Below, piece by piece: positions 16,302 through 62,926 of a stretch of DNA of 64,000 bases. The first letter of the stretch is position 1, and the number at the start of each line of letters is the position of its first letter. The translations under genes and the position numbers were made by a program. Origin of the DNA: Antedon mediterranea (Eukaryota > Echinodermata > Crinoidea > Comatulida > Antedonidae); NCBI RefSeq assembly GCF_964355755.1, contig NC_092676.1:560501-624500 (forward strand), in the 5' to 3' direction. A model generated the notes under the pieces. The model was not told the DNA's origin. It ran no database searches and saw nothing but the letters and a program-made list of their open reading frames with translations.

Positions 16302-28756
<12,455 letters not shown>

Positions 28757-33235: not shown

Positions 33236-33965
33236 GTGATTCTGCGCATGACAAAAATTATGAAAGATCCTTTACTGGAGGCATCTACCCCAAGTCCTGT
33301 TCCTCCATTTTTAAACATTCTTATGAAAGGATAGCAGGGATGGGTTTGCCCACTTATTTTATGTACTGAAATACTCATACAATATGCAATTTCCACCGTA
33401 TTTCATCAGAAAGCATTATTATTATTTACTTAATAAAGAACAAACTCTCAACCTTAACATAGGTACAAATTGGACGTCTACATTTTTATATAAATCTTGT
33501 TTAAACTTGTTAATATTAGTAATTTATAAATATAAGGTATAATTACTTTATGACGCTAATAATGTTTAACTTTCTAATGTAGGACATTTGTTTTTAAGTT
33601 AGTTTTATAAAACTTTATATAATGGTGACAGAGTGTAAAGCTCAGGTGTGTGAATACAATGCCATACTACTAATGAATGTGTAATATTGTAACCCAAAAC
33701 ATTTAGTCCATAAAAAAGCAAGTTGAAAATACTGTATACATGGAAAAACTATGATATCATCATAGTAATATTGCATTCGCAAGAACTAAACAATCTCAGA
33801 GATACAAGTGTATTGTTTTAGGTGCAAATGCTGTCATAGTTCCAGGATTTTCTGATGGCACATTACTACCTAGACTTAGAAAGCATGCGCTTGCCTGCAG
33901 TCAACTCATCAGTGTTGGTTGTATGTTTCACACCCACCCCAAGATGTGTTTAAAGCTGTGACAAG

Positions 33966-34392
33966 TAATGACTTAAGACTAATCAATGACTTAAGACCAA
34001 TCAATGACTTAAGACTAAGCAATGACTTAAGACTAATCAATGACTTAAGACCAATCAATGACTTAAGACTAAGCAATGACTTAAGACTAAGCAATGACTT
34101 AAGACCAATCAATGACTTAAGACCAATTAATGGACTTAAGACCAAGCAATGACTTAAGACCAATTAATGGACTTAAGACCAAGCAATGACTTAAGACCAA
34201 TCAATGACTTAAGACCAATCAATGGCTTAAGACTAAGCAATGACTTAAGACCAATTAATGACTTAAGACTAAGCAATGACTTAAGACTAAGCAATGACTT
34301 AAGACCAATTAATGACTTAAGACATAAGCAATGGCTTAAGACTAAGCAATCACTTAAGACTAAACAATGACTTAAGAATAAGCAATGACTCA
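33966..34392. repeat. 18-bp minisatellite, about 24 copies
   Basis: Unit GACTTAAGACCAATCAAT with C/T and T/G variants (CTAATC, CTAAGC, CCAATT) mixed along the array. Because 18 is a multiple of three, both strands stay open and give NDLRPI and SLKSLI peptide repeats. No coding role is inferred. It lies between the convergent malic enzyme and WASF genes. Confidence 0.9.
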
Positions 34393-35834: not shown

Positions 35835-36111
35835 ATTCTACATCTAATTCAAATTCTGTATCATCCCAATCAGTCTGAACAGACCTTTAATTCCAATCTA
35901 TATTATCATCCCAGTGTAAATAGACCTTTAATTTCAACCTGTACAATCATCCCAATCAGTATGAACAGACTTGTATCATTATCCTAATCACAGTGTGAAC
36001 AGACTTTTAATCTGTATAATCATAACCCTATAATGTATTATTATTATTTTTACTAGTGTGAACAAACCTCTAGTTCCAATCATCATCCTCCCAGTCTGAA
36101 CTTGTATTACT
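35835..36111. repeat. Degenerate tandem copies of the WASF acidic-tail coding end
   Basis: The plus-strand text of the coding end, CTAGTTCCAATCATCATCC followed by TCCCAGTCTGAAC, recurs downstream of the stop in altered form: TTAATTCCAATCTATATTAT plus CATCCCAGTGTAAA, TTAATTTCAACCTG plus CATCCCAATCAGTATGAAC, and CATCCCAATCAGTCTGAAC. Spacing is about 50-60 bp, with four or five copies in the 3' UTR. Confidence 0.6.
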
Positions 36112-39100
36112 ATCGTCTTCAGAATCACTAAGTTCAACAGCCAGACGTCTAGCCAAGATAGCTGCTACTGAGTTTGGAGTGCTATCAGACCCCTGCTTTT
36201 TAGCCTGGGTACGATCTACTTCACGCAGCTTTATACCTGAAAAACAATTAGTAAAATGTCATATAGAATCATAACAGGTATAGTACCAATTTACCAATAA
36301 CAGGTATAGTACCAATTTACCAATAACAGGTATAGTACCAATTTACCAATAACAGGTATAGTACCAATTTACCAATAACAGGTATAGTACCAATTTACCA
36401 ATAACAGGTATAGTACCAATTTACCAATAACAGGTATAGTACCAATTTACCAATAACAGGTATAGTAGTAGTACCAATTTACCAATAACAGGTATAGTAC
36501 CAATTTACCAATAACAGGTATAGTACCAATTTACCAATAACAGGTATAGTACCAATTTACCAATAACAGGTATAGTACCAATTTACCAATAACAGGTATA
36601 GTACCAATTTACCAATAACAGGTATAGTACCAATTTACCAATAACAGGTATAGTACCAATTTACCAATAACAGGTATAGTACCAATTTACCAATAACAGG
36701 TATAGTACCAATTTACCAATAACAGGTATAGTACCAATTTACCAATAACAGGTATAGTACCAATTTACCAATAACAGGTATAGTACCAATTTACCAATAA
36801 CAGGTATAGTACCAATTTACCAATAACAGGTATAGTACCAATTTACCAATAACAGGTATAGTACCAATTTACCAATAACAGGTATAGTACCAATTTACCA
36901 ATAACAGGTATAGTACCAATTTACCAATAACAGGTATAGTACCAATTTACCAATAACAGGTATAGTACCAATTTACCAATAACAGGTATAGTACCAATTT
37001 ACCAATAACAGGTATAGTACCAATTTACCAATAACAGGTATAGTACCAATTTACCAATAACAGGTATAGTACCAATTTACCAATAACAGGTATAGTACCA
37101 ATTTACCAATAACAGGTATAGTACCAATTTACCAATAACAGGTATAGTACCAATTTACCAATAACAGGTATAGTACCAATTTACCAATAACAGGTATAGT
37201 ACCAATTTACCAATAACAGGTATAGTACCAATTTACCAATAACAGGTATAGTACCAATTTACCAATAACAGGTATAGTACCAATTTACCAATAACAGGTA
37301 TAGTACCAATTTACCAATAACAGGTATAGTACCAATTTACCAATAACAGGTATAGTACCAATTTACCAATAACAGGTATAGTACCAATTTACCAATAACA
37401 GGTATAGTACCAATTTACCAATAACAGGTATAGTACCAATTTACCAATAACAGGTATAGTACCAATTTACCAATAACAGGTATAGTACCAATTTACCAAT
37501 AACAGGTATAGTACCAATTTACCAATAACAGGTATAGTACCAATTTACCAATAACAGGTATAGTACCAATTTACCAATAACAGGTATAGTACCAATTTAC
37601 CAATAACAGGTATAGTACCAATTTACCAATAACAGGTATAGTACCAATTTACCAATAACAGGTATAGTACCAATTTACCAATAACAGGTATAGTACCAAT
37701 TTACCAATAACAGGTATAGTACCAATTTACCAATAACAGGTATAGTACCAATTTACCAATAACAGGTATAGTACCAATTTACCAATAACAGGTATAGTAC
37801 CAATTTACCAATAACAGGTATAGTACCAATTTACCAATAACAGGTATAGTACCAATTTACCAATAACAGGTATAGTACCAATTTACCAATAACAGGTATA
37901 GTACCAATTTACCAATAACAGGTATAGTACCAATTTACCAATAACAGGTATAGTACCAATTTACCAATAACAGGTATAGTACCAATTTACCAATAACAGG
38001 TATAGTACCAATTTACCAATAACAGGTATAGTACCAATTTACCAATAACAGGTATAGTACCAATTTACCAATAACAGGTATAGTACCAATTTACCAATAA
38101 CAGGTATAGTACCAATTTACCAATAACAGGTATAGTACCAATTTACCAATAACAGGTATAGTACCAATTTACCAATAACAGGTATAGTACCAATTTACCA
38201 ATAACAGGTATAGTACCAATTTACCAATAACAGGTATAGTACCAATTTACCAATAACAGGTATAGTACCAATTTACCAATAACAGGTATAGTACCAATTT
38301 ACCAATAACAGGTATAGTACCAATTTACCAATAACAGGTATAGTACCAATTTACCAATAACAGGTATAGTACCAATTTACCAATAACAGGTATAGTACCA
38401 ATTTACCAATAACAGGTATAGTACCAATTTACCAATAACAGGTATAGTACCAATTTACCAATAACAGGTATAGTACCAATTTACCAATAACAGGTATAGT
38501 ACCAATTTACCAATAACAGGTATAGTACCAATTTACCAATAACAGGTATAGTACCAATTTACCAATAACAGGTATAGTACCAATTTACCAATAACAGGTA
38601 TAGTACCAATTTACCAATAACAGGTATAGTACCAATTTACCAATAACAGGTATAGTACCAATTTACCAATAACAGGTATAGTACCAATTTACCAATAACA
38701 GGTATAGTACCAATTTGGTTGACTAGGGGTGTCTGAGGGGTTATACTGTAGTTGAGTTTAAGAAGCTTGCTAAATGTTGGTTTGTGTTTGCTCCATGTTT
38801 TCAATAAATGAAAAATCAAAGACTAAATAATAATTTTTTTTTTTTTTTTTTTATTTCAACTTTATTTATAGAGGGTAACCCTTCCAGCTGAACCCGCAGG
38901 CCAGCTGATATTCAGGGGCCCTCTTGAAAATGACAAAATATATAAAACTATACTTAACTAATACGAATCTACTATATACATTTAAATTTAAAACTATTAT
39001 ATAAAAAAATAATTATCCAAAAATAAGTCCTGGAATAAGACTACTGCAGTAACTGAATATATTTACTGTAGTAACTGAATAGAGTTATAAAGCATGTTAT

Positions 39101-42100
39101 TTATGTCAACTTCATCACTGCTTACTTGATGCAATAAAGGAAATAAATAAATAATAAATAAATAAAATATGCCAAATAATATTGCATATTTTCAAAATGT
39201 ACAGTACCTGTTCTGATAGCAGTAAGTAGGTCACTCCTGGGATTTTCCTCTGGTTCCTTCGGTGGTGGTGGAGCTACTCTAGCTGGAGAAGACGTCATCA
39301 TCGTCGGCACAGGAGGACCTTGCGGTACAGGAGGTGGAGGAGGTACAAAACCAACATCTGGTGGTGGTGGAGGTGCAGGAATATATGCAGATGGACCAGT
39401 ATCATATGGTTCTGGATATCCCTGCATGGGTGGCGGCGGCGCTATTGGAATATGCTGCAGATTGTCATTCTGCTCGTCATAGTCTATATCCTGTCTGTAA
39501 TCCTGGTCGGTCATCTGTGGTTGGTACGCCGGTGCATCTGGGTATTTAGGCGGTGACGGTACATGTTGTTGTAAATTGTACTCATTCTGGTATCCAGTAT
39601 TTATTGGTAGTGCTCCGTTACCCATTGGTTGAGGCGGCGGTGGTGGTGGTGCAGCTGCCGGTCGGTGCGGTGCAGATCTACGTGCTTCCTGTCTGCTCAT
39701 TCGGTCCCCTTGGTCTTGGTACGAAATACCGCCTGTGTACTGCGGGTCATCTTCTGGTACATGAAGCTGGTTTTGTGTAGTATTGTTCTCTTCTGGTGGC
39801 GCTCTGTGATGTTCAATCTGGGGTTTTTGGTCTTGCACAAGGTCCGCGCCATCTTTCAACCGCACCCATTGGTCCATCCTTGATTTTGCTTTTCTTGGCT
39901 GATGGGATAATGTTCCCTTTTCTGGTTTCTTATGCTAAAAATTTTTAAGGCAACAACAAAATTGTAAAGTAAAAAAAGTAAAGTATTGGTCTACAAACTA
40001 CATTGAAGCAACTTCCATCCTATTGGTTAACATTTATAAAAGACAGACCAAGTCTGATAATTTGGATCACAAATTTTTAAAACTTTCTGTTATAAAGATT
40101 ATAAGAACAAGTACAAACTACTTCATACTCCTCCAACAGCGAGTAACTCGCCAATTACACTACAGGATAGATAAACTATTTAATAATTTATCGTGCTTAT
40201 AAACTCAGTCTCATTTGAGGCTTAGGGAGTGGAGTTGAAAGAGTCATGAGTTACAACCCTGCACTAGGTCAGGATTGAACTCGGGAGCTTGGGATTGGAA
40301 GGCAAGCATGTTAACCACCAAACTACAGCTCCACTACTTATTTATTTATTATATGTAACACAACTGGTGTCTAACCTTTCGTCGATGCCTACGCTCTTGT
40401 TTGAGTACAGAAATGTTCTTTTTCTGTTCTTCGCACCATAATTCAAAGAAGTACCTTGGTTTGGTGTAGAATTCTAACCCTTCTTTGCCATCTTCCCTGT
40501 AAGAGAAACATAGTACAACTTCCTATCTTTGTTTTTACAAAAAAACAATGTGATACATTCACTAATGTAAATATATTTTAACTTAATTTAATTGTTATCT
40601 TCATTGGAAGAAAGAAATACATTATAATTGTAAAATAGATTTTAAGTTGGTGGCCCATTCAGATTTTAAGCATGAGAAAGACTGAATTTTGAAGTGCCAT
40701 AGTATAATTTATTATTTTTATTACATTTTTAGAATGATAATTATGAAAATTTAATGAGCATTGTGGCTTAGAAGTTGAAAAAGTCATGGACTACCATTAA
40801 ACTTATGAGCTGTAAAGTAATAACTAACAATTATCAGTAAGTAAGTAATTATGCAGTCAAATAATCAGCCAACATCAGAGGGTTGGCAATACTTAACCAT
40901 TTAATTTTATAATAACCTTTACATACAGGTATTTAAAATTGGGAATTTTTTGTTGTTGTCCACCAATGTTATTTACTGTTAAATGTTAAATTTGAGTTCG
41001 ATTTTAAATAAATATCAAATGCTATTAGTTAGATATTTTCTTTATTTATTTAAATTGGGAGTTTTAAAATTTTTCTTTTTATCTGCTTTAAATGGTCAAG
41101 GAAACATTGTCAATTTGTTCATATTTTATCCAAAAAAGGAAGACAATTTCACGGTTTAAATAATGGACCATTTTTGGTATAAAACCAATTGTAAAATTCA
41201 AATAAATTGGAACCATAAAGACTAATTTCATAATTGTTTATTTTGTAATGTTAATGGAGGCAACATAAATGTTCTTTAACCTTAATAAATACACAACAAT
41301 AATGTAATAATAATAATAATATAATAATTCCCAAAAAAACATGAAAAAAAAAATGTAGTTATTAAAAGGAACCATTTTTCTGAACACCTTTTAAAGACTT
41401 TGTAAACAAGAACAAACAAATGCTGGCATTGTATGTAACAACATGCCAATTGCATTCAAGTGTTGATGATTCTGAGAGTGTGTTCCAATTTATAACAATG
41501 TCTCTCCCGAGGGCTCTGTACATCAGAGACTACTCATTTTTAAACGTCACCATTCTTGACGTGAATTGATCAAACTACTGCGTCTATTAGCATTATCAAT
41601 CCTTACGTGAATTGATCAAACTACTCCAGCTATTAGCATTATCAATCCTTTATAAATGGGTTTGGATAAAAAATGCATGACTTGACATACAAACACACAT
41701 GGCATACAACATTTTCAAATCTAATTTTTTTTCCAAACAAATACAAATTGAAAACTATATTGTTGAAATTAAAATAACACAGAAACAAAAGCACAACAAA
41801 ATATTAGTTTAGTAATTTAAAAAATGATGTTCTGCTTTCTGACCGTAGTACCAGCATCATAGGTATGACATGCCATGTGTGCCAAAATGTATCTTTTATG
41901 GAAAATATAAGCCTAATTTTTGCTTAGAACATAAGTTTTCTGATGTACAAACCCTAGGAGGCACTGTCATATTCAGGTATAGCTATGACACGCAAAATGT
42001 ATAAATTGTATACAGTGTCATATTGTAATTTTATACTATTCCATATTTATAACAACTTTTACCTAAACAAATTAAGGATAAGGTGATTCTGGACGCAGCT

Positions 42101-45100
42101 TATACTTCAGTTTACTGAAATATCCAACTTTAACTACAAATTACTGGATACCGATATTTTAAACAGCCTATACTGCTATATGTTCCTAATGATCTGAAGT
42201 GTCAGTAAATGTATTAACTGTGATTTTTTTAGTGCTTTTCTTGTAATTTGTTTTTACTTGATTCATGACAATTTTAATTTGTCATAGAATAGGTTATAAT
42301 GACATTGATTGATTTGTGTTTCCTTCACAATTTAGCCCAAAGCTGATGACATTTAAATAAATGGTAAAATTTACAAACCCTTCAAAGAGAAAATAGAACA
42401 CAGAATAGGTAAAAATTTAACAGCATTTATCTTTCAAATAAATTTTGCTCAATATGATGTTAAATTTGTACAAATTTATTGTTAAATTTTGGCAAATATG
42501 GTAATATAAGGGCAAATCATTATTGATTATCAGCCCAATTGAACGAGTTTAATACATACATGATTAACCAGATGATTTACGATGACTTATGCTAATAATA
42601 ATAATCCACGACATTATGTTAAATAATATTCAAATTGAAATTCCTTGAGAATTCTAATCGTTTCACAAGGTTAAAATATATTTATTAAAGTTGAATGACT
42701 TATTTTGAATAAAATGCCCTGGGGTAGTTTATTATTCAGTAGGCCATTTATTTGAGGGGGCATAACACTAAAACATATATATATAATATGGTAGAACAGC
42801 TATTAAGGGGACACCTTTGGGTCCCAACAAAGCATTCCCTTAATAGAAGTGTCCTATATTTGTTGCCCTTGTTCATGTCATGGAAAATTGTGCCCTTTGA
42901 GTAGTGTCCCACAGGAGACGTTCAACCGTACTCTAATAAACTTACCACTAAACCCAACATGGAAGCAAATGAATACATTACCTGTATGGCGTAAGAATGT
43001 GTAAGAGTGGAGGTGGTTCGCACTTAACCGTGTAAGTGTCGTGAACGGCGGTCGGACGCTTCTCTTTCGATAACATTTCTTGGTCTAAAATCACTTTACT
43101 TTGAAACGGAGCATATGCCAGTATATCTTGTAAGGACACTAAACAACATTGACAACATTAAAGACAACATACAACATAGTAAATCAAAGATAATGTAACA
43201 ACATTAACATACATCTCTTCCAATCAAAACTGTATAGAATTACAAGGTATAATTAAATAATTAAAGAAAAACAGTATTAATATGCAAAGAAGCGAATTAA
43301 AAAAATTATAAATTATGGTAGTATATTTTAAGCTGACCATATTTTAGTTTGTTTTTAAATTGTTTGTGTTTAATGTGTCACTGTCTGTACTATGATTGTG
43401 ATAACATGACCATGATAATAATAAATCTGATATTTATTTAATGACCAATACAAAATACTGAAAAGTTTCTTTTGGGTCAATATAATGCAAAACTGTCACT
43501 GGACTTTGAACGTGGATATCAATCACTATACTTTCTTATCATGATTAAAGTCAATTCCTTAATACTATTAAATAATAATAGTAGTAATGCTTAACTAATG
43601 TATAATTCCACACTAGGGGCAAACTGTTTTGGTATTATTATGTATCTGTAATAGTATGTCCAATAACGTTGTTCCTTTTTCAGTGATTATCCTCTTTTAT
43701 TTATCGAAAGTGTTAGGTCAAAACATGTTTACTCTATGAATGAGTACTGTATAACCTTTGGGGGTCTGGGTACAACATTTGGTAACAATTGGGGGGGGGG
43801 GGGGAGGTGATAAAACTGGTATAATCAAATTTCATTAGTTACAATGGAATTGTCTTGTGTTCCTGTACAACGTTTTGTAAAAATTTGAGGGTGTGATTAC
43901 CGGTATAATCAGATTTCATTTAAACAATGGAATTGTCTTGTGATCCGGTTTTAGCATAGATTATTGGGTGGTATTATACTTGAGCATAGGATTTAACTTG
44001 GTCACAGCATTTAAACATTGAAGTCATGATCTCTTATCATTGTTATAATGCACAATCATTTAATATTCTACTAATGTCTTTAAAATATACTGTACTCATG
44101 CGGATGTTACATTATAACATGTACAGTAGGTTGTTGAGTAAATGCAGAATGTAGATCTGATTTCAGTTTATTCTACTTAGAGAAACACCTTAAATATTGT
44201 AAATTATTTTAATCATTGCTTTTTTTTTGCCAATTGCTATGTGGGTGGATTCAAATATTGCAGTAATAAAACTTAACACTGATTATTCCAAAAGAAAACA
44301 GACATTTATATAAATTAAATGTATAAACGAAACTAATGATGAGGCACGACCTGGATTTAACAGCAATGACGTCAAAGACAACTGTTTCCCAAACTTGATT
44401 GTTGATGCAAAATAACATCAAAATCTTTATTTCCTGTGCAAATGGACTTTTGATTTGTAGACATGATTGATGTGATAAGCCTCTCTTAGATGTAATCTTA
44501 TTTGTTCTGATAAGATCTAGTAGGCTTATAGCATCAAGATTTCATCATCATTATACTGTACTTACTGGGAAAAAACTAGAAACATAGGGCATAGAAATCC
44601 AATAATGATTAATACAAAATTGAGAGTCTGCATGGATCAGGAAGATGATGAATACAGTAATGCCTCTATAGATCAAAAAGAGGGGTGGGGATCAAAAAGA
44701 GGGGTGGGGATCAAAAAGACGGGTGGGGATCAAAAAGAGGGGTGCGGATCAAAAAGAGGGGTGCGGATCAAAAAGAGGGGTGCGGATCAAAAAGAGGGGT
44801 GCGGATCAAAAAGAGGGGTGGGGATCAAAAAGAGGGGTGGGGATCAAAAAGAGGGGTGGGGATCAAGAAGAGGGGTGAGGATCAAAAAGAGGGGTGCGGA
44901 TCAAAAAGAGGGGTGCGGATCGAGGTGTATAGTATTTTAGTATTTGTATAGTCATTTTAGGATACCATTTGTTTATCTAGGTAAAGCATACATTTGATGT
45001 CTCTATGAATCAGGAGGAGCAAGGGGGAGGGAGGTATATGTATTTGTTCTGTCCTAGACAAAATGCTTGAAAAAAATTATTATCGTATTCTTCAGCACAA

Positions 45101-48100
45101 ACTATTACATTAAAATTGCTCAATAATCATTGAATGTGTATTGTATTGAAATAATCCCAACATTTAAAATATACTAAATACACACTTATACAACTACTGT
45201 ACAATGTTTGATCAATACAGGAAGTCAAAGAATAAAATATATAATAATAATATTCTTTTTATAATGTTTATCTAGTAAGTCACAATAAATATACTCCCTC
45301 ATTAAATGGTGATCTAGTATTTTATTATGATAAAAAACATTTGTTTGTTTTAGCTGACTACATACAGTGTAGTTTGAAAGATTGTAGTGGAAATAAAAGT
45401 CTAGTTTCTTTTCTCTGTTAAATAAACATACAGGCACTGCACATTATTGCATTTAAATCATGAATAGGAGGCTTGTATTGTAATACGGTGTGCTTTGAAT
45501 TTGTGAGAATTTGAAATTATTGATTTGGTCAACCTTACCAGGGCTAACAGCAAACATACATAATTACAACACTAACAATATATTATAGATTTGAATACAT
45601 TAAATACAACTGCAGCCAGAGTCAGAATGACTACAAATCAAATTAATGAACAGAGTACCTTGAACCCCAGTACATACGTACATGTTCATTTTAGGCTATG
45701 GTGTTAATGATTTTAGGCCTGTAATCCAATATCTTCAATTGACCCAATTATTTATGATTATAATGTTACTAATTTAAAATCTTGTATGTATCAATGAAGG
45801 GGATGCTGATCACCGAGTATAGTCGAAATTCTATTTTTGTGTTCCTAGAAATAATTAGTTCATACTATAATAATAAATAATGCTATAAATATTATACGTT
45901 ACAATACATTCATTATTTGTACTAAAATAAAATGTAAATTTGAAAAACGCAATACATCAGTATCTAAATTGCTCAAGTCAAGTCAAGTCAGGACATTTGC
46001 TTAAAGCAAGAGATTTGTATTAGTATTAATATACAAATTGCTTGAGTTAAGCAGATATCATCCCAAGTGTACAAACCAAATTCAATTTGATCTTTACAGT
46101 ATTTGGTTTCATAAGGGGGGTTAACATTAATAGCGATACATCTAACTAGGACAACATAAGCTGTGTAGACTTGTACAATGAATAAATTACTATCAAAATA
46201 TAAAATAACATATCACGATTAAAATTATTTTGATTTAAATAAAGAGGATTTACTTCAAACAAACTCAATCAAAAAATCGTATTAGATTTCAATCAGAAAT
46301 TATATATGTATGATTATTAAAGTAATATTGTCAACCATGAATCTATTTTAGCATTTTAAATGTATTATGACTTAAATCATTACTGTTATACAGTAGCCTA
46401 CAACCTGTGTAGTAATGAAAGACTGTAGAAGATTTTATTGTAAATTACCTTTTGGGAAAATTAAATAAATGAAAGAATTTAGAATTATCTCCAATTAACA
46501 TTAAACTTTAATAATTATTACTGCTTTCATTACATTGATATAAACATTAAAATAACATTATTAATGTTCCACATTTAGAATGACATGACCTTTAAGTTTA
46601 AATTTAAAACTAAGGTTTGTATAAAATTCAGAATATTCTCATAAGATTTTGATAAATTAAACCTAAACCGAAACAATTTATAAAAACACAGACACTGTAC
46701 TACATATTGTCACTGTTTATTATTTGTATGATACCACATTTTGTTGCCTAAATTATGATTTTTTTTTTTAATGTGTAAAAAACCGAACAAAGACAAATAT
46801 TTTAAATAATAAAATATATTTTATATAAATTCATAAAGGAAGCTAACTGGTAAATAATGATTAATAATGTAATGATGCATTATTACAAAACACATTAAAT
46901 AGCTGACAATTTTGATTTATAAAACAGAATCTACTGTCATGATCTAATGCATTGTAATTATAATACTTAGCATCGTTAACATATATTTTTATCGTTTCTA
47001 ATAAAACTGAAAATAAGAACTGATTGGAAACTAGGACAATAAAGACCAACGATCTGAGGAGAGGAAAGAGGAGGAGTGATGGGAAATGGGCAAAGAGAAG
47101 AAGGGGTAGTGGAGAAGATGGAGGGAGAAGGGGTAGAGAGGAGGAGTTGAAGAACAAAATGTTTCAATGTTTCTTTCCTTTATTTCAATTCGTAAACAAA
47201 TTGAAGGTCAACATTTCAGTATAGTCTTATAAGGTTACAGCAAATTACTTAAAAGGGACATATCAACTACGTACGAGAATAAAAAAAGTCTATAAATATA
47301 TACTGTAATGCAGTTGTAAATTTAAATACCAATAGTCAAGATGGATACAAATTTAGTATGAACATAGATTTTGGCAGGCAGTATTTCTTTATAAAGACAG
47401 TGGGGATAAGAGTTAAGACTAGAGGTAAGAGACTGTGTACACAGTAATCAAAATTGTATTTATTTGTATGTACTTTATGCAGTACAGTATAATATGCAAG
47501 AGGCTGTGTAACTTATATTTCTATAAATAGATAGTACTCAATTGCAAAAACAGAGAGCATGTTCCAAAATTAATTATAAAAAGAAAGGCTTGGGAATTTC
47601 TATGAATCCGATATTAATCAATTTTAAAAACATGAAATTAATTTCAACTGCTAGCCACAGCTACTGTCACTGATGATTATCAACGTGATTGCATGTTTAA
47701 TAAATGCAACTTACTTTATCGCCAACTTCAAATTTACGACTAACAAGTAGCCCGAGAAAAAAAGAATTTTATTCATGCAAACTGATGGAAACATAAGATT
47801 TTTTTGTAAGGTAATTATGAACATGTTTTACGCATAAATTATGCTTCAAGTCTGGATCGGTAAAGCTAGCTATAAATATAGTTAACAATGTTTAAAGAAT
47901 TTAACCATTTTATGCCTCTATGTTTTACAACTATATCAGTGAATATTCTGTATAATATATTACTGTATAATTAATATGCCTAGAATAAACACATACAGTA
48001 AGTGTTTAACTGATTCCAGCTACAGTATGTTTAAACTGCTCAGACAATATTCCCGGAGGCACTGATAAAACAAAAAAAATGTGTGCAGTGTTTAAGAATA

Positions 48101-51100
48101 GAATGACCTCATTTCGGGTTCCACATAAACATACTGAAGGTGCCAGAACTACAGAGCCCAACAATTCACAGTTCTTTTTAATTTCTCAAGTTAAACACTC
48201 CTCACTTTATTCAAGAAAAACAATAAGAGAGAGGGCACTCTTGCCACGATGAGAGTAACCCAATTTTATGAATATTTTCGTGTCGCTGTCATTAAATGAT
48301 GGTGGTTATCTGATTTGGTTACAAGTTAAAGACTTTCAATTTAGAGGTATAATTGACAGATGTTACAAATCTATTATATTACTGTATCAATGATCTATTT
48401 CTGTATCACAGTCAATGATGGTTTGTTGTTTTCATTTCTACAGCGGTGGTATATTCTACTGTTTATTTTGCCACATAGTTTTGAGTTTTGCTGATTCTAT
48501 CTAATGCACTTGCGTAGAACTATTCTCACATCGCCTTACAAAATTCTGGAGTGTAAAATCATTCATCAGTTTTGCTATGCAATGTGAAAGGGGTAATACA
48601 GGTAAAAAACTAAATGACTAACTTTTAGCAAGATAATATACTTGATATTGTTATTGAAATTTTGGGAATAAAAAAAGTATGTATAGATGTGTTGATTATA
48701 TGTTTGTTTGTAAACATGAAATAATGATTTTTGATAACTTGACAAAATGACCACAAAGCAACATATCCGTATGATTACTGCACATGCCTACAAGCTAATC
48801 CGAGTTGTGATAGCTACCAAACTCCATCCAAACCAAGATCATATTGGAATTCAAGCTGTTAACCCACTTGACTGGTTGTACAAAGGTACGTGGATGATTG
48901 TAATGTTCTGTTGCTTTATAGTCATGGTGTTGCGCAATCAAAAAGGTCTTCTTATTTCTACAGCATGCAAATAGTTTAGTATTGTGATGAAGTTATAGAT
49001 TATAAAACTAAAAAATATAAATGATTGTTTTATTCTAAAGCGTGTTTACTAAGAGCACCATGTTAGGCCAGTGTATAGTGCACCATGTTAGGCCTTGTGA
49101 CTAGTCTTTGATTGGTAGAGACGTGTTGTTACACAACCTTTGATTTGCGTCCGTTTTAGACTAAACCATTACCTGTAAGGGGTGAGTAAGTTCAACTTCG
49201 GTGGTTTATCGCATAGCATATATAGCTCCCTCATTGTTGAGGGCATAGTGTGACCCGCAACTACTTGTTGGTCCATGAGCGTGGAGCTTTTGTAAGCTTT
49301 ACGCAAATGAATATCTTGTAATAAAACTGAAAAATTGCCAAAAAAAATAAAAATGTATCGTCGACTGCTTATTACCATGGCAGACGAGACACAGGTTAAT
49401 TGAAAAAAATAAATGATTAGCATAGTAATCACCCTACATTTGCATATTAATTGCATAATATTTGCATATTAATTGCATATTATTTGCATCATTTGCATAT
49501 TAATTGCACCAATGTCCTTCTCATGATTGAATTTTTTCAGGCCACAAAATTGTATAATTTGATAAAATTGAATTGAGAGCAATGTTTTGCGATATCAAAA
49601 GCTAATTTAACAAGACAGATAACATCACATATCATTCAAGACCTACAGTATATCAGACACTTGTTTCAACATAATTTAAGATTAATAAAATGTTTTGAAA
49701 ATTTGCTGGCCAAAATGATTGCTGCGCACGACAAAATAATAGTGTAATGGCCAGTGAAGTTTGCTTTAATAAAGAATATGCAAATGTAGTGGTGAAACTT
49801 TATTATCTTTTCTATCTACAGCTGTGAATAAAAGCAAAATATAAACTATAAATGCTTTCAAGAAGTGTTTGTCTAGAACTGTATTTGACTGGAATTACAA
49901 AATTCAAGACAAGCACTCTTGTATGCCAAATAATTATCTTTAAATTAAAAAATGTGCATTATTTAGTATAAAATAAGAAGAAGTAATAAATGTGCGAATG
50001 ACAGATTTTTATGATTAATTATTATATGTGCTAGATTAATACACCTTAATATTATTTAAATAAAAATAATATGAATTTGCATATTGTCTATAAATCAACA
50101 TAATAATTTGAATAATTAACTACAAATTAGCTTTGCTATTATGTTGGTACAGTACTGCTTTCCTAGACTTGAATCCAAACCATTAGCTTAGTGGTCTAGA
50201 GTAAAACATCTCACCAATTATAATAAATCTTTATTTTTTTTTCTATTCATTATTAGCTAAAGCTCTGTCTACACTATCAAACTTTATGCAACAAAAAATT
50301 GTGATGTGCCCATATGGACAAGATGATGTCATATCTCTACCATATTTGGGCACATCACACTACTTTGATAGTGTACACAAAGCTTTATAGCCACAAAGAA
50401 ATAATCTTCTTAAACATTTTTAGTCTTATTGAATTTGAACAAAAAATTTAAACTTTTGCAAATGACTATTTACTAAGCAAAGCAAATATTGCCATACAGT
50501 AGAATATGTCTGTGGTGTAGTGTCACCAACACCTTATCAGAAGGGACCAATTCCTTGCTACTCAGTGAGTTTAAATTATTCCTGTAATGTTCTGTGATGC
50601 TGTAGGAAGTATAGCGTTTATTTTGTAATGACACGGTTTAAAAATCACCCAATTACATATTAAATAGTAATATAAAACCAAACAAAATTTTATAAAAACA
50701 TCTTGTTTTGAATTTTACAAACATTTTTGTTTCAGTGTTTTGTTTTTTTGTTGTGTTTTCCAGAAAGATTATAATTGAAACTTCTTTCTAATTTTATCAA
50801 GCGTAAAATAAATAAATAATTTAAATTGTTCATTGCACTATACCTGGATCCTGTGTTGCATCTAACTTGGTTACCTTCACCGACAGTTTATCTATCCTGT
50901 CTTGAAGAACATTGGCTCGGACAAAAACCGAGTTAGCCTCTTGATAGAGGTCGCCAAATATATCCTCGGCATGTTTACTAAGGTTACTTAGTTGGCGTAT
51001 AACACCAGCTAATGTACTGTTAGTCACACATTCAAGTTCGTTCCTAATTCCTTTGTCGATTGTGCCTCGACTAAGGTGTACTGGCTCTACGTGTCGTTTT

Positions 51101-51134
51101 ATAAGCGGCATTTCAATAACAATTTAATTCACAT
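36070..51134 (-). CDS. WASF: WASF/WAVE/SCAR family actin-nucleation promoting factor
   Basis: WAVE proteins sit in the WAVE regulatory complex and activate Arp2/3 downstream of Rac. Minus-strand exons: 50844-51134 (ATG at 51109-51111), 49173-49326 (2a) or 42982-43138 (2b), 40376-40496, 39208-39934, 36070-36236 (TAG at 36070-36072). All phases join; 478 aa with 2a, 479 with 2b. Domains: WAVE homology domain about 1-181 (start MPLIKRHVEP, NELECVTN, SKHAEDIFG, LTPYR, FYTKPRYFFELW); basic stretch about 165-200 (ERRHRRK, KKPEKG); proline-rich 270-410 (APPPPPPQP, PAPPPPPDVG); WH2 about 413-432 (DLLTAIRTGIKLREV); central VAAILARRLAVELSD; acidic tail ending SSDWEDDDWN. Length is like vertebrate WASF1-3 (about 500-560) with a shorter proline region. 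WASF1, 2 and 3 arose in vertebrates, so the family symbol is used. Confidence 0.95.
36271..38714. repeat. 26-bp minisatellite, about 94 copies
   Basis: Unit AACAGGTATAGTACCAATTT plus ACCAAT, almost perfectly uniform; one copy near 36466 has an extra TAGTAG. It occupies most of the intron that divides the WH2 motif of WASF and starts only about 35 bp from the terminal exon. On the gene's own strand each unit contains TGGTACTATACCTGTTATTG. Confidence 0.97.
38831..38945 (-). mobile_element. 3' tail of a poly(A)-ended retroelement
   Basis: On the minus strand the segment reads GAGGGCCCCTGAATATCAGC, CTGCGGGTTCAGCTGGAAGG, then TATAAATAAAGTTGAAATAAA and a run of about 20 A. This is the form of a LINE or SINE 3' end with its own polyadenylation hexamer. 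The 5' portion is missing or unrecognised. It lies in the WASF intron beside the 26-bp satellite. Confidence 0.55.
40203..40336 (-). mobile_element. tRNA-derived SINE-like element
   Basis: The minus strand reads GAGCTGTAGTTTGGTGGTTA (A-box-like), then CTTGCCTTCCAATCCC and GAGTTCAATCC (B-box-like, compare GGTTCGANTCC) at tRNA-like spacing, followed by GTTGTAACTCATGACTC. It does not fold as a complete modern tRNA. It is intronic in WASF and in the same orientation as that gene. The tail is not obvious, so borders are approximate. Confidence 0.5.
40497..42981. other. WASF intron between exon 2b and exon 3
   Basis: AT-rich sequence with the two-copy repeat at 41557-41652. No third copy of exon 2 was found: the shared exon end (AG|GTAATG after TAC) occurs only at exons 2a and 2b. 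Confidence 0.5.
41557..41652. repeat. Two-copy tandem repeat, ~45-bp unit
   Basis: ACGTGAATTGATCAAACTAC followed by CTATTAGCATTATCAATCCTT is present twice in tandem. It lies in the WASF intron between exon 2b and exon 3. No function evident. Confidence 0.75.
42982..43138 (-). CDS. WASF: WASF exon 2b (alternative version of exon 2)
   Basis: 157 nt between TTTAG and AG|GTAATG, entering in phase 1 and leaving in phase 2, the same as exon 2a. Encodes VSLQDILAYAPFQSKVILDQ at the start and CEPPPLLHILTPYR at the end. About one third of residues match exon 2a; shared blocks are LQDI, DQ, the tyrosine before C/PP and LTPYR. It lacks the RKAxxSST block. Because both exons are 1 mod 3 in length, including both or neither shifts the frame. 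Confidence 0.85.
44671..44920. repeat. 19-bp minisatellite, 13 copies
   Basis: Unit GATCAAAAAGAGGGGTGCG with GGGG/TGCG and single-base variants. Strongly purine-rich on the plus strand. The 19-bp period moves through all three frames, producing the KEGCGSKRGVRIKKRGADQ type of peptide, which is not taken as real protein. Confidence 0.93.
48747..48885 (+). CDS. Possible isolated plus-strand exon, unknown
   Basis: Open frame from ATG (MTTKQHIRMITAHAYKLIRV at the start) for 46 codons, ending in WLYK at a good donor (CAAAG|GTACGT). Base use looks more coding-like than the surroundings. No partner exon, domain or homologue could be identified; it may be a relic of a mobile element lying antisense in the WASF intron. 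Function unknown. Confidence 0.2.
49173..49326 (-). CDS. WASF: WASF exon 2a (canonical-looking version)
   Basis: 154 nt between TTTTTCAG and AG|GTAATG, entering in phase 1 and leaving in phase 2. Encodes VLLQDIHLRKAYKSSTLMDQ at the start and KLNLLTPYR at the end. It keeps the RKAxxSST...DQQ block known from vertebrate WAVE1-3 and the tyrosine (ELY) that aligns with WAVE1 Tyr125, a known phosphorylation site. It belongs to the WAVE homology domain that packs on the other complex subunits. Confidence 0.9.
49438..49510. promoter_or_regulatory. Cluster of four POU octamer motifs (ATTTGCAT)
   Basis: Exact ATTTGCAT at 49438-49445, 49460-49467, 49482-49489 and 49491-49498; the first, second and fourth are followed by ATTAATTGCA. 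On the gene's strand these are ATGCAAAT sites about 110-180 bp upstream of the WASF exon 2a acceptor. It could be a POU-factor binding cluster or simply a short AT-rich tandem repeat. Confidence 0.5.
50260..50385. mobile_element. Palindromic MITE, AAGCTCTGTCTACACTATC family, copy 3
   Basis: Ends AAGCTCTGTCTACACTATC and GATAGTGTACACAAAGCTT, flanked by TA on both sides (50258-50259 and 50386-50387). Core GATGTGCCCATATGGACAAG. Slightly shorter than the other copies. In the WASF intron between exon 1 and exon 2a. Confidence 0.9.
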
Positions 51135-52114
51135 CTGAAAAAAAAAAAAAAAATCAGTTACAATTCTATTTCAATTCTAAATTTTCTGGTTGCAGTTTTC
51201 CCTCCAATAAGCAGTACATCAGTGTGTAAGTCGTGCTTAAATAAAGACTTAAATTTAAAGTAAATCCTTTCATTGAGCCTAAAACATGCACCATGTGATA
51301 CTGATCATTTTTGTCCCGTTTTCTAACAAGAAAATGGCGATAAAATAAAAAACAGGCACATGCGCTTGGAGATGGTGTTAAAGTGAATTTACAAATACAA
51401 ATCTAATCTCAGAAATACCAAAAGAAATAGTTTTTTTCTACTAAACCATTGGCCTTCATCTATTAGAACCACTTCAAATATAGTGACAGGGACCAGCTAA
51501 TACTAGATTAACACCATTTTACTTCATAAACCAGGAAGTATAATATTGACACAATCACTATTCAATCCATCAAATTTATGATTGATTCTACAATAGAATC
51601 AATCGTTTATTTAAGTTCAGTCAATGGAACAAGCATCACATGCAGCAATTGTTGTTGGCTATGCTAAATGCCGCTATGCTGTTATGCTGCTATGCCGTTA
51701 TGCCGCTTCATTCACATTACATTTTATGGCCTGTTCCTATTGAAAAATCTTGAGAAACAGTTTTCCCCAAAACAGGAATTGGTAGTTTATACTGTAGATA
51801 AATTTTGATGCTGTTTTCAGTACAAGTTGATCTTAACAATCCGAGAACAGTTTTTGAAATCTTGAAAAAAGTAACAAAATTTAATTTTCACTATATTAGA
51901 TTTTTGAATAAATAAATTATGAAATGATTTAAGCCATTTATTGGAGCAGAACATGAACTGATCATAAATGAGCCAACCACCTTGAATACAGTCTACAGTA
52001 CAGAAAAAAATGACTGCAACTTTTCCTATGAGCTGGCGTCTGTAATATGACAATTATTGCAATGTTACTGGTGGTAGCACCTTTGATACGAGATTCACTA
52101 AAATGACTTTTGTA

Positions 52115-52564
52115 CTATTTAACATGGGTATAACACTTGTTGGTCTATTTAACATGGGTATAACACTTGTTGGTCTATTTAACATGGGTATAACACTTGT
52201 TGGTCTATTTAACATGGGTATAACACTTGTTGGTCTATTTAACATGGGTATAACACTTGTTGGTCTATTTAACATGGGTATAACACTTGTTGGTCTATTT
52301 AACATGGGTATAACACTTGTTGGTCTATTTAACATGGGTATAACACTTGTTGGTCTATTTAACATGGGTATAACACTTGTTGGTCTATTTAACATGGGTA
52401 TAACACTTGTTGGTCTATTTAACATGGGTATAACACTTGTTGGTCTATTTAACATGGGTATAACACTTGTTGGTCTATTTAACATGGGTATAACACTTGT
52501 TGGTCTATTTAACATGGGTATAACACTTGTTGGTCTATTTAACATGGGTATAACACTTGTTGGT
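52115..52564. repeat. 30-bp minisatellite, 15 identical copies
   Basis: Unit CTATTTAACATGGGTATAAC plus ACTTGTTGGT repeated 15 times with no difference between copies. Both strands are open throughout because 30 is a multiple of three (FNMGITLVGL forward, MLNRPTSVIP reverse). The perfect identity indicates very recent expansion or an assembly effect. Confidence 0.97.
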
Positions 52565-53808
52565 CTACAATTCTGTGAACCATTCTATTCCTTTATATAT
52601 GTTTTCAATGCATGAGTAATGTTTAGATTGGTTGTTGAGGTATACAGGTACCTGTCTTTAGGAATGTAGCTTTATTGTGTACCCTGCAGGGCATGCAGTA
52701 AGGTGAACACTTGTAACTTAAAATTGGTGAAAGAACTACCGGAAGATCCTAGAATCTTAGATCAGTTTACATGTGTCCTGTGGTTAACACAGCAGTGATC
52801 AGACAGATAGTTTACAATCATTGCGACTTATTCCTCCAGGTTCTCTGCAAGTCCTCTACAGGTAACCTGCTAACACGTTTCTGATGATTAATATGGCTAT
52901 GGATGATTTAAAGCCTGTTACTCTGAAATGGGTACTTTAAATTTTGTTAAACACTAAAAAGAACCGATCTTAATTACGCATTTTAAAAACCCCAAAAGAT
53001 TCCGGTCTAGATCGGCAAAACATGTTTTAAACAAATTTAGCTTTATTTAAACAAATTCATATATTGTTTGAATACTGTAGGAATTGGTAAAAGTAGAGAT
53101 ATATTTAAAAAATACATATTTTATTTTAAATCCCAACCAAATTGGTTTGAATTAACGCCACATTATACTGAATAATCTTTAGTTGTATTAATTATTACGA
53201 ATTTATTACACTTGCAGACTGTGAAATGACAAAGATTTTACAGGCTTTTCCTGTAGGAATGTATAAGCAACATAAATCGATAAAAACAAATTTTATTTCA
53301 ATCAAACATGTCATTTATAGCACTAGCCACTGAGCATGTGCAATGACCTGATAATAAATGTCACTGAGCATGTGCAATGACCTGGTAATAAACGACAAGA
53401 ATTTGTAAGCTTTACCAATCAATACCTTCATGTATAATAATGCAAGACAAAATATAATATTTGATTACTGCTGAAATGAAGAAGACCGATAGTCTGAGAT
53501 GTCTTGAGGGATGTAATTCATCTACTGCTCAAATCGCAAACTAAAACTACATTTGTAATTTCAACATGCTACTTTTCACTTATTAATTTAAACAAAAATA
53601 TTTCTACTGTTTTTTTTTAAACTTCTTGGAAACTATACTGCATTAAGCAAATCAATATGATTTGAAAAATGTGACAACTATAGAAACAGGCACAGATTTT
53701 TCTGAATATATTCTGTAATAATACAACTTGTCTTTGACACATGAAATCCATACTAATAACAGCACAGAACTTAAAAAGAAGAACATATCATTAACAATAC
53801 TTCTGTTA

Positions 53809-58962: not shown

Positions 58963-59907
58963 TTAAACTGTTGATGTACCAAGTTTTTCTTTCACTTTAT
59001 CGTCAATGTTTGTGTAATATTTTAGTTTTGCTAGGACGTCTCTCGCTTCTTTCAACTGGTCATTCTTAAATAGCTCTGCAAGTTGTATCATTAACTCTTT
59101 AATATTCAATTCATTTTCTTCACCAATTTTCTTTACAATTTCTAGGTTGGTTGTATCGGACAACTCTTCATTTAACTCCATCATATCCATAAGAAATACT
59201 TTATCGACCATTGAGTCGCCTTCTTCGATTGGGTGGCCTAGAAGTTCCAATAGATACAATCCTCTATTTAAAGGTTTTAATAATGTTGAATATGCTTTGT
59301 TGACAGCAGAGGACTGCCCAGCTGAGAATTCTTGTTCCTTAGGAGACTTCTGACTGAACTTATCTGGATGAAGTAAGCGTTGAAAATTTCGGAATGTTTG
59401 AGTAAGTTCTTTTGTGTCAATGTCAAATGATTTTAGTAAACTCATTCTTTGAAAATAGTCAATATTTTCTTGACATGGTTGAATCATTTTGCAAGATTCA
59501 CAAAAAAAATTTACGCCAATCTCAGGATGTGAATTTGAAGCTAAACAATTCCAACATATTGATGAAGTATGGCAAAAACGAATTGGACTGCATGTATCGT
59601 ATCCAACGAGATGCTTAGGCCCAATAACCTTACACATACCACTCCCAAAACGAGCGGACGATATGGCCTTAGTTGCAACATGATCGCCAGTCTTCAGAAA
59701 AATTTCTGGGCCTGGCGAACCGTCCAACATTCTAACACGATATTTATAGTTACATAAGCTTGAAAAAGCCCTAAAATTACATATCTTATTTACTTCAATA
59801 ATATGTACATTACTTGGTTTTGGTAATATACATTTAAACTTCACAAAACACTGCCGTAACACAAATTTAGAACTTTGGATTCGAAACATTACCATGGGCG
59901 CTGCCAT
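58963..59907 (-). CDS. HSCB: HscB iron-sulfur cluster co-chaperone, mitochondrial, single exon
   Basis: HSCB is the J-domain protein that delivers ISCU-bound Fe-S clusters to the HSPA9 chaperone in mitochondria. The frame is uninterrupted for 314 aa. The start chosen is ATG at 59905-59907 (AAAATGG context); an in-frame TTG lies five codons upstream. A zinc-binding cysteine quartet is present at C118, C121 (CWNC), C136 and C139 (CESC), then a J domain with HPD at 180-182 (LLHPDKFSQKS) and SAVNKAYSTLLKPLNRGLYLL, and a C-terminal helical bundle (MELNEEL, KEARDVLAKLKYYTNIDDKV). The segment before the cysteines is about 117 aa, much longer than the roughly 40 in human HSCB; it is rich in basic residues at the start, as for import. 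Vertebrate HSCB is multi-exon, so lack of introns is notable. Confidence 0.95.
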   Translation of the reverse strand: MAAPMVMFRIQSSKFVLRQCFVKFKCILPKPSNVHIIEVNKICNFRAFSSLCNYKYRVRMLDGSPGPEIFLKTGDHVATKAISSARFGSGMCKVIGPKHLVGYDTCSPIRFCHTSSICWNCLASNSHPEIGVNFFCESCKMIQPCQENIDYFQRMSLLKSFDIDTKELTQTFRNFQRLLHPDKFSQKSPKEQEFSAGQSSAVNKAYSTLLKPLNRGLYLLELLGHPIEEGDSMVDKVFLMDMMELNEELSDTTNLEIVKKIGEENELNIKELMIQLAELFKNDQLKEARDVLAKLKYYTNIDDKVKEKLGTSTV

Positions 59908-60017
59908 TTTGTTTATTTGCAATTATAGAGGGCGCCAAAGGTAAACAAACTTTACGGCGTGTTACGTTATCGGAAATAAGTTCATAACAAAAATAAGAAC
60001 TAATTTATTTGCTAATT
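59908..60017. promoter_or_regulatory. Shared bidirectional promoter interval of HSCB and CLYBL
   Basis: Only 110 bp separate the two start codons. It contains ATAGAGGGCGC (59925-59935), GGCGCC and TTACGGCGTGTTACG, and is otherwise AT-rich. No TATA box is convincing. The same ATAGAGGGCGC word occurs at the candidate promoter at 58.56 kb. The core resembles the AGRGGGCGC part of CTCF sites, but this is only a similarity. Confidence 0.6.
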
Positions 60018-62926
60018 ATGAATTTTTCTTTAGCCAAACACATTGCTCACTCATATTTTAAACATTATAGATTAATTTCATGTAAAAGATGGGTTAGGTC
60101 TAGAATTAACTCTTCAGATATAGACGTTCAAATGCTAGGCCCTGCCTCGTCAATCAGAAGGCAATCGGTTTTCACACCTCGGCGGGCCGTGATGTATGTT
60201 CCCGGGAGTGAACAAAAAAAGTTAGGAAAGTTAGAGGGCCTAGCAGTAGATTGTGCTGTGATGGATTGTGAAGATGGAGTGGCGATTAACAGAAAGGTTT
60301 TTTTCGTCTATTCTATTTTGTCTTACTAGGCCTACTGTATTCAATTTAAATTTTTTACACTGTGAACTCACAAATCTGTAAATCCTAATATAGTAATAAT
60401 ATTACAGTAATTATATGTTGTTAAAAAGCAGCAGTGAATCCCAAAACAGTATCATCGTTTTTTTTTTATGCAGGATGTAGCCAGAGAAAACATCAGAGCA
60501 TCACTTGACTCTTTATCAACGCCGGGTGTAGGCGACTTGGCTGTTAGAATAAATGCTATGGATTCTGGGATAGTATCGGATGACTTAAATATAATTTACA
60601 AAGCTCATAATTTACCAAAAACCTTAATGCTTCCCAAAGTTAACAGTCAGAAAGATTTAAATTTGGTGAGAAGATAATTACTTTTATTTGTGATATTTTG
60701 TCTTGTGTACATGTACCTTTAAAAACTGTTGTGTGTTTGTATAATACCATTTATGTATTGGAAGCAGTGTTTAAAATTAAAACTACTTCTGAAAATATTT
60801 GACTTAATTTTATTGTTTTTTCAGTTTTCTGAAATCTTTGTAGATGTTTTGAGGAGAAAGAATTGCCCAAATTATAAAGCAAAGCTTGTCATATTCACTG
60901 AGAGTGCTATTGGTCTTATAAACTTGAAGGATATTCTACAAGAAGGCATGGAACTTTCTAAGACTCTTCCATTCCAGCTTGAAGGGGTGGTTTTTGGATC
61001 AGATGATTTTTGTGCTGACATCGGCAAGTGTTATTTTGAAAATCTTATTTACAGATGTACATAGTTATCACTTTTTCCATTTAATATTTTTTTTTGTGTA
61101 ATTTTTTGTGTGCTTTATTTTATTTTGTTAATCCTTATGAATTCTATTTATTTTAATTTTTGTTGTTGCATGTTTATGTCTTGTCATGATGTATGTTGTT
61201 GCATGTTTATGTCTTGTCATGCTGTATGTTGTTGCATGTTTATGTCTTGTCATGCTGTATGTTGTTGCATGTTTATGTCTTGTCATGCTGTATGTTGTTG
61301 CATGTTTATGTCTTGTCATGCTGTATGTTGTTGCATGTTTATGTCTTGTCATGCTGTATGTTGTTGCATGTTTATTATGTCTTGTCATGCTGTATGTTGT
61401 TGCATGTTTATGTCTTGTCATGCTGTATGTTGTTGCATGTTTATGTCTTGTCATGCTGTATGTTGTTGCATGTTTATGTCTTGTCATGCTGTATGTTGTT
61501 GCATGTTTATGTCTTGTCATGCTGTATGTTGTTGCATGTTTATGTCTTGTCATGCTGTATGTTGTTGCATGTTTATTATGTCTTGTCATGCTGTATGTTG
61601 TTGCATGTTTATTATGTCTTGTCATGCTGTATGTTGTTGCATGTTTTATGTCTTGTCATGCTGTATGTTGTTGCATGTTTATGTCTTGTCATGCTGTATG
61701 TTGTTGCATGTTTATGTCTTGTCATGCTGTATGTTGTTGCATGTTTATGTCTTGTCATGCTGTATGTTTGTGATGGACCACTCTCATAAAATATTGTTGA
61801 AATAAATTTTAAAAAAAAGTAACCATTTAAAATACTTCAGAAATTTATACCTTATACCCCTTATTAGGTTCAAAAATTAAATAATTGTGTTTGTTTTCTA
61901 ACTTCCTTTTATAGGTGCAAGTAGAACAGAAGGAGCCAACGAATTGTTGTATGCACGACAAAAGGTTGTTACAACAGCAAAAGCATTTGGATTGCAAGCA
62001 ATTGATTTAGTTCACATTAATTTTCGTGGTAAGTTAGGAAGTTGTTCTAAGGCTGCGTTCACACGTAGAGGGCAAGGTTGGCGTGCCTCTTATGCAAGTC
62101 GTAAAGTAATCCAAAGCATTTGATTACAAGCTATCTATCTTCTAACTACTGTAAAGCTCTGTCTACACTTCCTATCAAACTTTATGTGACAAAAAAATGT
62201 GATGTACCCATATATGGACATGATGATGTCATATCACTACCATATTTTGGCACATTGCATTTTTTTTGTCAAACTAGTTTGATAGTGTAGACAGAGCTTT
62301 TGGTTAGGGATCTGGATGCTGTAATAGATCAGAAAATAAGGTTAGCTTAAATTGCTGCCAGTACAAAAGCATCATTTTGCAGAAATGATGATGGCAATAT
62401 TTAAAGCCTAATAATAAAAATAGCTAAAATTCCTTTTTTTTAAACAGATCTCAAGTCTCTTGAGAAACAATCACTAGAAGGAGCGACTATGGGCTTTACT
62501 GGTAAGCAGGTCATTCACCCCAATCAGGTGGACGTGGTTCAACGAGCATTCAGTCCATCTGATGAGAAAGTTGAATGGGCTCAAGAACTCATCAAAGAAT
62601 TTGAAAATCACCAACAGTCAGGAAAGGTAAAGTTGTTGTCATGTCTGAGGTTTGGGGAAACTCTCCCAAAACTGAACACATTTGGGCTCGCCTAATATGT
62701 CAGATTTTCTGGAAATTCCGGTATTCCGAGAATTTTTTATAATTGTAAATATGAATTTGGAAACTTTTGTACCGATATTGATATTGCAATCAAGCAATGT
62801 ATGAAAATGTTTTTGTTTTTTTAGGGTGCAATGACCTTCCGAGGCAGTATGATAGACATGCCATTAGTATTACAAGCTAAGAACATCCTAAGTCTTGTGA
62901 ACACCAACAATAATGTGAAAAGGTGA
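60018..62926 (+). CDS. CLYBL: Citramalyl-CoA lyase, mitochondrial (citrate lyase beta-like)
   Basis: CLYBL cleaves citramalyl-CoA to acetyl-CoA and pyruvate in mitochondria, in C5-dicarboxylate (itaconate) disposal, and protects vitamin B12 metabolism. Exons: 60018-60296, 60474-60665, 60825-61023, 61915-62028, 62448-62626, 62825-62926 (TGA at 62924). Phases join, 354 aa (human 340). The ATG at 60018 opens a basic N-terminus (MNFSLAKHIAHSYFKHYR) suited to import. Family blocks: RRAVMYVPGSEQKKL, DCAVMDCEDGVAINRK (metal and substrate residues), LMLPKVNS, FTESAIGLINL, VFGSDDFCADIGAS, LLYARQKVV, AFGLQAIDLVHINF, MGFTGKQVIHPNQV. The donor after exon 3 is GC (ATCG|GCAAGT). Exon 1's donor is weak (AAG|GTTTTT). 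AATAAA at 63118 and 63139. Confidence 0.96.
61162..61768. repeat. 33-bp minisatellite, about 18 copies
   Basis: Unit GTTGTTGCATGTTTATGTCT plus TGTCATGCTGTAT. A few copies have an extra TAT (TTTATTATG). All frames remain open because 33 is a multiple of three, so long cysteine-rich or histidine-rich frames appear on both strands; these are not genes. It lies in the CLYBL intron with the GC donor. Confidence 0.95.
62154..62299. mobile_element. Palindromic MITE, AAGCTCTGTCTACACTATC family, copy 5
   Basis: Ends AAGCTCTGTCTACACTTCC (with a small insertion) and GATAGTGTAGACAGAGCTT, left flank TA. Core GACATGATGATGTCATATCA is itself palindromic. This is the copy nearest the family consensus. In the CLYBL intron between exons 4 and 5. 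Confidence 0.9.

Follow-up and report, generated by a model that had tools for sequence, protein, structure and literature searches.

The WASF gene of Antedon mediterranea was found to carry two different copies of its second coding exon, 2a and 2b, within a single 64,000-nucleotide stretch of DNA (the window, C7:560501-624500, in a genome of 354 Mb and 18 contigs). Judged from the sequence, the two copies very probably represent an old tandem duplication that has been kept as a pair of alternative coding exons, mutually exclusive within one WASF gene. WAVE is part of the switch that activates branched actin. The alternative WAVE exon lies in the segment that keeps WAVE inactive, and the sole CYFIP/Sra1 gene of the genome, located outside the window, also has a tandemly duplicated exon, which lies at the Rac1 site that releases WAVE.

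The WASF exons, all on the minus strand, were located by searching the window with human WAVE1. The exon coordinates, lengths and phases proposed in a first-pass annotation of the same DNA turned out to be right to the base. The gene comprises the following coding features (window positions):

50844..51111, minus strand: WASF coding exon 1, 268 nt, phase 1 out, MPLIKRHVEP...ATQDP, donor CAG|GTATAG
49173..49326, minus strand: WASF exon 2a, the vertebrate-like meander exon, 154 nt, phase 1 in, phase 2 out
42982..43138, minus strand: WASF exon 2b, the alternative copy of exon 2, 157 nt, phase 1 in, phase 2 out
40376..40496, minus strand: WASF exon 3, constant, carrying the Tyr151 equivalent and the meander stem
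39206..39934, minus strand: WASF exon with the proline-rich region and the beginning of the VCA (3' end approximate)
36076..36237, minus strand: WASF last coding exon, with the C and acidic regions (both ends approximate)

The gene was identified as WASF/WAVE from the presence of the WAVE N-terminal region, the proline-rich region and the VCA together in one gene, and the isoforms with 2a and 2b both aligned end to end with the WAVE1 of structures 3p8c and 7usc (E of about 1e-63 and about 1e-58). Identity to WAVE1 was 58% for exon 1 (residues 1-88), 54% for exon 2a (residues 92-141) and 45% for exon 2b. Exon 2a (translation VLLQDIHLRKAYKSSTLMDQQVVAGHTMPSTMRELYMLCDKPPKLNLLTPYR) has the acceptor TTTTTCAG and exon 2b (translation VSLQDILAYAPFQSKVILDQEMLSKEKRPTAVHDTYTVKCEPPPLLHILTPYR) the acceptor TTGTTTAG, with a lower pyrimidine content in 2b than in 2a, and the donor is CAG|GTAATG in both cases. 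The pair consists of adjacent homologous exons with equal phases, near-equal length and GT-AG splice sites.

Elsewhere in the window, tandem-repeat arrays that are open in at least one frame were observed at 26125-28400, 33880-34367, 44524-44948, 52054-52615 and 61110-61805. An intact open reading frame of 319 aa is present at 58963-59922 (minus strand); by eye it resembles the mitochondrial co-chaperone HSCB.

When the exons were spliced in silico, the combinations 1-2a-3 and 1-2b-3 were both open, the combination 1-2a-2b-3 ran into an early stop within 2b and the combination 1-3, with exon 2 skipped, into a stop within exon 3. These early stops bore out the frame argument made earlier for this locus, namely that using both exons or neither shifts the frame. 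In the mechanism that we propose, each WASF transcript would take one of 2a and 2b. Inclusion of both or of neither would cause a frameshift and an early stop, and because this stop precedes the later exon junctions such transcripts should meet nonsense-mediated decay and be cleared, so that frame and decay would together enforce the use of a single exon. Given that in 60% of human mutually exclusive clusters the lengths are not multiples of three (PMC5740500), there is nothing special in the frame enforcement seen in WASF.

Exon 2b shows clear signs of coding constraint. The two exons are 50% identical in DNA and have 19/52 residues in common, and the differences at codon positions 1, 2 and 3 amount to 26, 16 and 36 of 52, respectively (second versus third position, p = 8e-5, and p = 0.001 once the conserved ends are removed). 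Since free drift would make all codon positions differ alike, this indicated that the reading frame of 2b is one that has been selected for most of its life, as far as can be read from a single genome. Among 157-mers taken from the neighbouring introns only 0.2-3% were open in the frame of 2b. A neutral test was also performed, in which 20,000 simulated copies were drifted to the divergence between 2a and 2b and scored for openness, amino-acid identity and codon pattern; 3.7% of the copies were open, 0.08% had an equal residue identity, 0.01% had the codon pattern and none (0/20,000) matched all three jointly. With regard to age, just one residue common to 2a and 2b differs from WAVE1 and seven WAVE1 residues kept in 2b have been lost from 2a, which in this comparison of three sequences suggests that the duplication is old. 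No third copy of exon 2 was detected when the entire window and the regions of the two paralogues (see below) were searched with a profile.

Two further, divergent WASF-like loci, P1 and P2, are located on the same chromosome as the WASF gene of the window:

C7:3969762-3970584: WASF paralogue P1, compact, with exon 1, a single exon 2 and exon 3
C7:10976120-10976383: WASF paralogue P2, exon 1 alone, found by sequence

Exon 2 of P1 is intact, has the same length as 2a (154 nt) and the same phases as 2a and 2b; the introns of P1 are about 125 and 150 bases long and an acidic C-terminal stretch lies downstream. At six sites this exon agrees with 2b and not with 2a, and at one site the reverse holds (sign test, p = 0.125, with small numbers), a weak sign that it derives from a 2b-type exon. 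For P2, exons 2 and 3 were not found in sequence and profile searches.

These results bear on several alternative explanations of 2b. The poorer match of 2b than of 2a to WAVE1 would fit a relic that was formerly coding and is no longer spliced in, but the frame of 2b is open, its splice sites are intact and codon-position constraint is seen after saturating change at third positions, such that a loss of 2b splicing would need to be very recent; we consider a relic quite unlikely. That 2b is part of a separate transcript, with its own promoter or from a second, broken copy of WASF, and is not swapped with 2a is very improbable. The two divergent paralogues on the same chromosome speak for such an origin, but no remnant of exon 1 or exon 3 was found beside 2b, and 2b possesses a 3' splice site, with phases equal to those of 2a. 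An assembly artefact or a collapsed paralogue is hardly credible at all, given that the region of the pair contains no Ns, that the DNA identity of the exons is only 50% and that the genome contains one copy of 2a and one of 2b.

A different function for the pair would be that of an off switch, where splicing of both exons or neither is regulated, the level of WASF is lowered via decay and 2b is kept partly for this purpose. Transcripts with both exons in or both out do stop early, and for a minority of frame-incompatible human pairs, reads joining the two exons are seen (PMC5740500). A poison exon, however, requires no conserved WAVE-like frame and 2b has one, which makes it unlikely that this is the main role of the pair. 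The preferred explanation is still that 2a and 2b are used as mutually exclusive coding exons.

The meander of WAVE is ordered only when it lies on CYFIP. Alignment to the solved WAVE1 showed that exon 2 encodes the first half of the meander, the autoinhibitory segment, at residues 90-141 (numbering from PMC5614565 and PMC9481577). The meander as a whole (residues 90-184) rests on Sra1 in the solved complex, with its helix alpha2 touching the W helix (PMC5614565, PMC9481577). The WAVE side of the Tyr151 pocket is made up of P131-P133 and L134, and replacement of the PPP stretch is one of three mutations meant to break the Tyr151 lock (PMC9481577). The first-pass annotation had suggested that the pair varies a surface of WAVE that faces partner subunits; this part stands, and by the WAVE1 alignment the exon lies in the meander and not in the helical bundle. 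The isoforms differ in helix alpha2, in the loop that precedes alpha3 and in the wall that PPP and L134 contribute to the tyrosine lock, and the N-terminal helical bundle of exon 1, the Tyr151 equivalent, the stem and the VCA are common to both.

Relative to WAVE1, residues R98, K99, A100 and R102 are changed to Y, A, P and Q in 2b and residues S104 and T105 to K and V, and of these R98, K99, S104 and T105 are the same in WAVE1 and 2a. The basic RKAxxSST block is replaced by LAYAPFQSK in 2b and kept in 2a, as had been noticed before the alignment to WAVE1 was made. Near the PPP stretch 2b has gained one residue, and an alignment that retains PPPL is possible for it, whereas 2a has PPKL. The alignment also agreed with the earlier remark that 2b keeps the tyrosine aligned with Tyr125 of WAVE1; given that this residue is retained by 2a and 2b alike, it does not discriminate between the exons. 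From the position of these changes in the human complex structures, the latch would be altered between the two versions, and 2a and 2b may set different thresholds for VCA release.

The duplicated exon of the CYFIP gene is as follows:

C5:31682343-31682524: CYFIP exon 4a, 182 nt, phase 0 in, phase 2 out, GT-AG
C5:31682894-31683075: CYFIP exon 4b, 182 nt, phase 0 in, phase 2 out, GT-AG

These are the only two copies of CYFIP exon 4 in the genome and they encode Sra1 residues 130-190, including Rac1 A-site contacts. In silico, CYFIP with both exons or with neither contained stops. Both exons align without gaps to the solved CYFIP1 and share 40/61 residues, and their differences at the three codon positions (18/13/36) indicated that both are constrained as coding, as seen in this single genome. 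The CYFIP duplication looks younger than the WASF duplication, since 4a and 4b have 11 residues in common that differ from human. The Rac1 A site consists of Sra1 residues 91-108 and 176-215, and activation is impaired by the mutations N176W, C179R, N183R, S186M and K189M (PMC9481577). At these positions N176 and N183 are kept in 4a and 4b, both exons have A179, and the two differ in having S186 and K189 (4a) or A186 and R189 (4b). In the N-terminal CYFIP exons the WRSC sequence (tyrosine-lock residues 86-89) is unchanged.

None of 63 further matched exons from related genes (CYFIP 13, Nap1 20, Abi 1, CYRI 6, strumpellin 21 and BRK1 2) showed a duplicate, and a repeat-filtered scan of 167 kb for tandem open reading frames returned, apart from repeats, the WASF and CYFIP pairs only. 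CYFIP, Nap1, Abi and BRK1 each have one genomic locus. Such exon events are reported for 214 human genes (PMC9741552). Taking about 20,000 human genes, this would be about 1%. That a complex of five subunits should have two such pairs, both on the path from Rac1 to the VCA, is unlikely to be due to chance, though the coincidence was noticed post hoc.

With regard to how exclusion is brought about, the intron that separates the two alternatives measures 6034 nt in WASF and 369 nt in CYFIP, all sites are GT-AG and all donors are GT-type and U2-like. Steric hindrance and a U2-U12 clash were ruled out as causes by these intron lengths and splice-site types, to which steric or splice-site incompatibility is a poor fit. 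Among 654 AGGT sites in the window and the other scanned loci, the donor AG|GTAATG, in which the U at +5 is unusual, was present only at 2a (49173) and 2b (42982); it is also the donor of CYFIP exon 4a, and is thus found in 3/4 of the alternative exons. Its recurrence could reflect a control element common to these exons or be coincidental. A search near the alternative exons for motifs of common splicing factors gave no clear shared pattern.

The occurrence of exon pairs in both WASF and CYFIP means that the surface receiving Rac1 and the latch on which Rac1 acts could both be tuned, the former by the CYFIP pair and the latter by the WASF pair. With a single gene each for CYFIP and Abi, plus the WASF gene of the window, up to four complexes could be made in this way. 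The donor common to 2a, 2b and 4a is a hint of common control, and we tentatively raise the possibility, which is on the doubtful side, that the WASF and CYFIP exons are co-regulated and that a cell type swaps both as a matched set with a distinct activation threshold. If used, the exons would represent natural paired variants of the surfaces that earlier work probed with point mutations (S186M, K189M, delta-PPP), and natural alleles would allow a direct test of how sequence determines the threshold at which the complex is activated.

In a survey from 2012 of the WASP family, based on all available cDNA and EST data, one case of alternative exons was reported, a mutually exclusive pair in Aplysia WASP, and the authors judged single transcripts to be, most probably, a characteristic of the family (PMC3298513). 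The first-pass claim that no mutually exclusive WASF exon has been described is consistent with this survey, which contains no WAVE alternative exon (PMC3298513), and a search of the open literature gave nothing relevant on mutually exclusive exons in WASF or CYFIP, although an isoform present only in a catalogue is possible. The Aplysia californica exons 11A/11B (PMC3298513) are like the WASF pair in being mutually exclusive and in lying in a part related to autoinhibition. They encode, however, part of the second WH2 and the C domain of WASP, whereas the exons described here encode the WAVE meander that holds the VCA, and no partner-subunit pair is reported for Aplysia, whereas a CYFIP pair is present here. 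As a class, tandem mutually exclusive exons (PMC5740500, PMC9741552) are likewise adjacent homologues with the same phases, similar length and incompatible frames; the present case differs in that two subunits of one complex, on one regulatory path, are involved. Mutually exclusive exons are of a well-known kind, and it is the pair in the WAVE meander, and its occurrence together with a pair in the CYFIP A site, that appear undescribed. The RKAF(R/K)SST block is a feature of WAVE2 and WAVE3. It is also kept in WAVE1 (PDB), in contrast to 2b, where it is replaced. Vertebrates also obtain several versions of the complex, from WAVE1/2/3 and CYFIP1/2, but they do so by means of separate genes and not by exon swapping.
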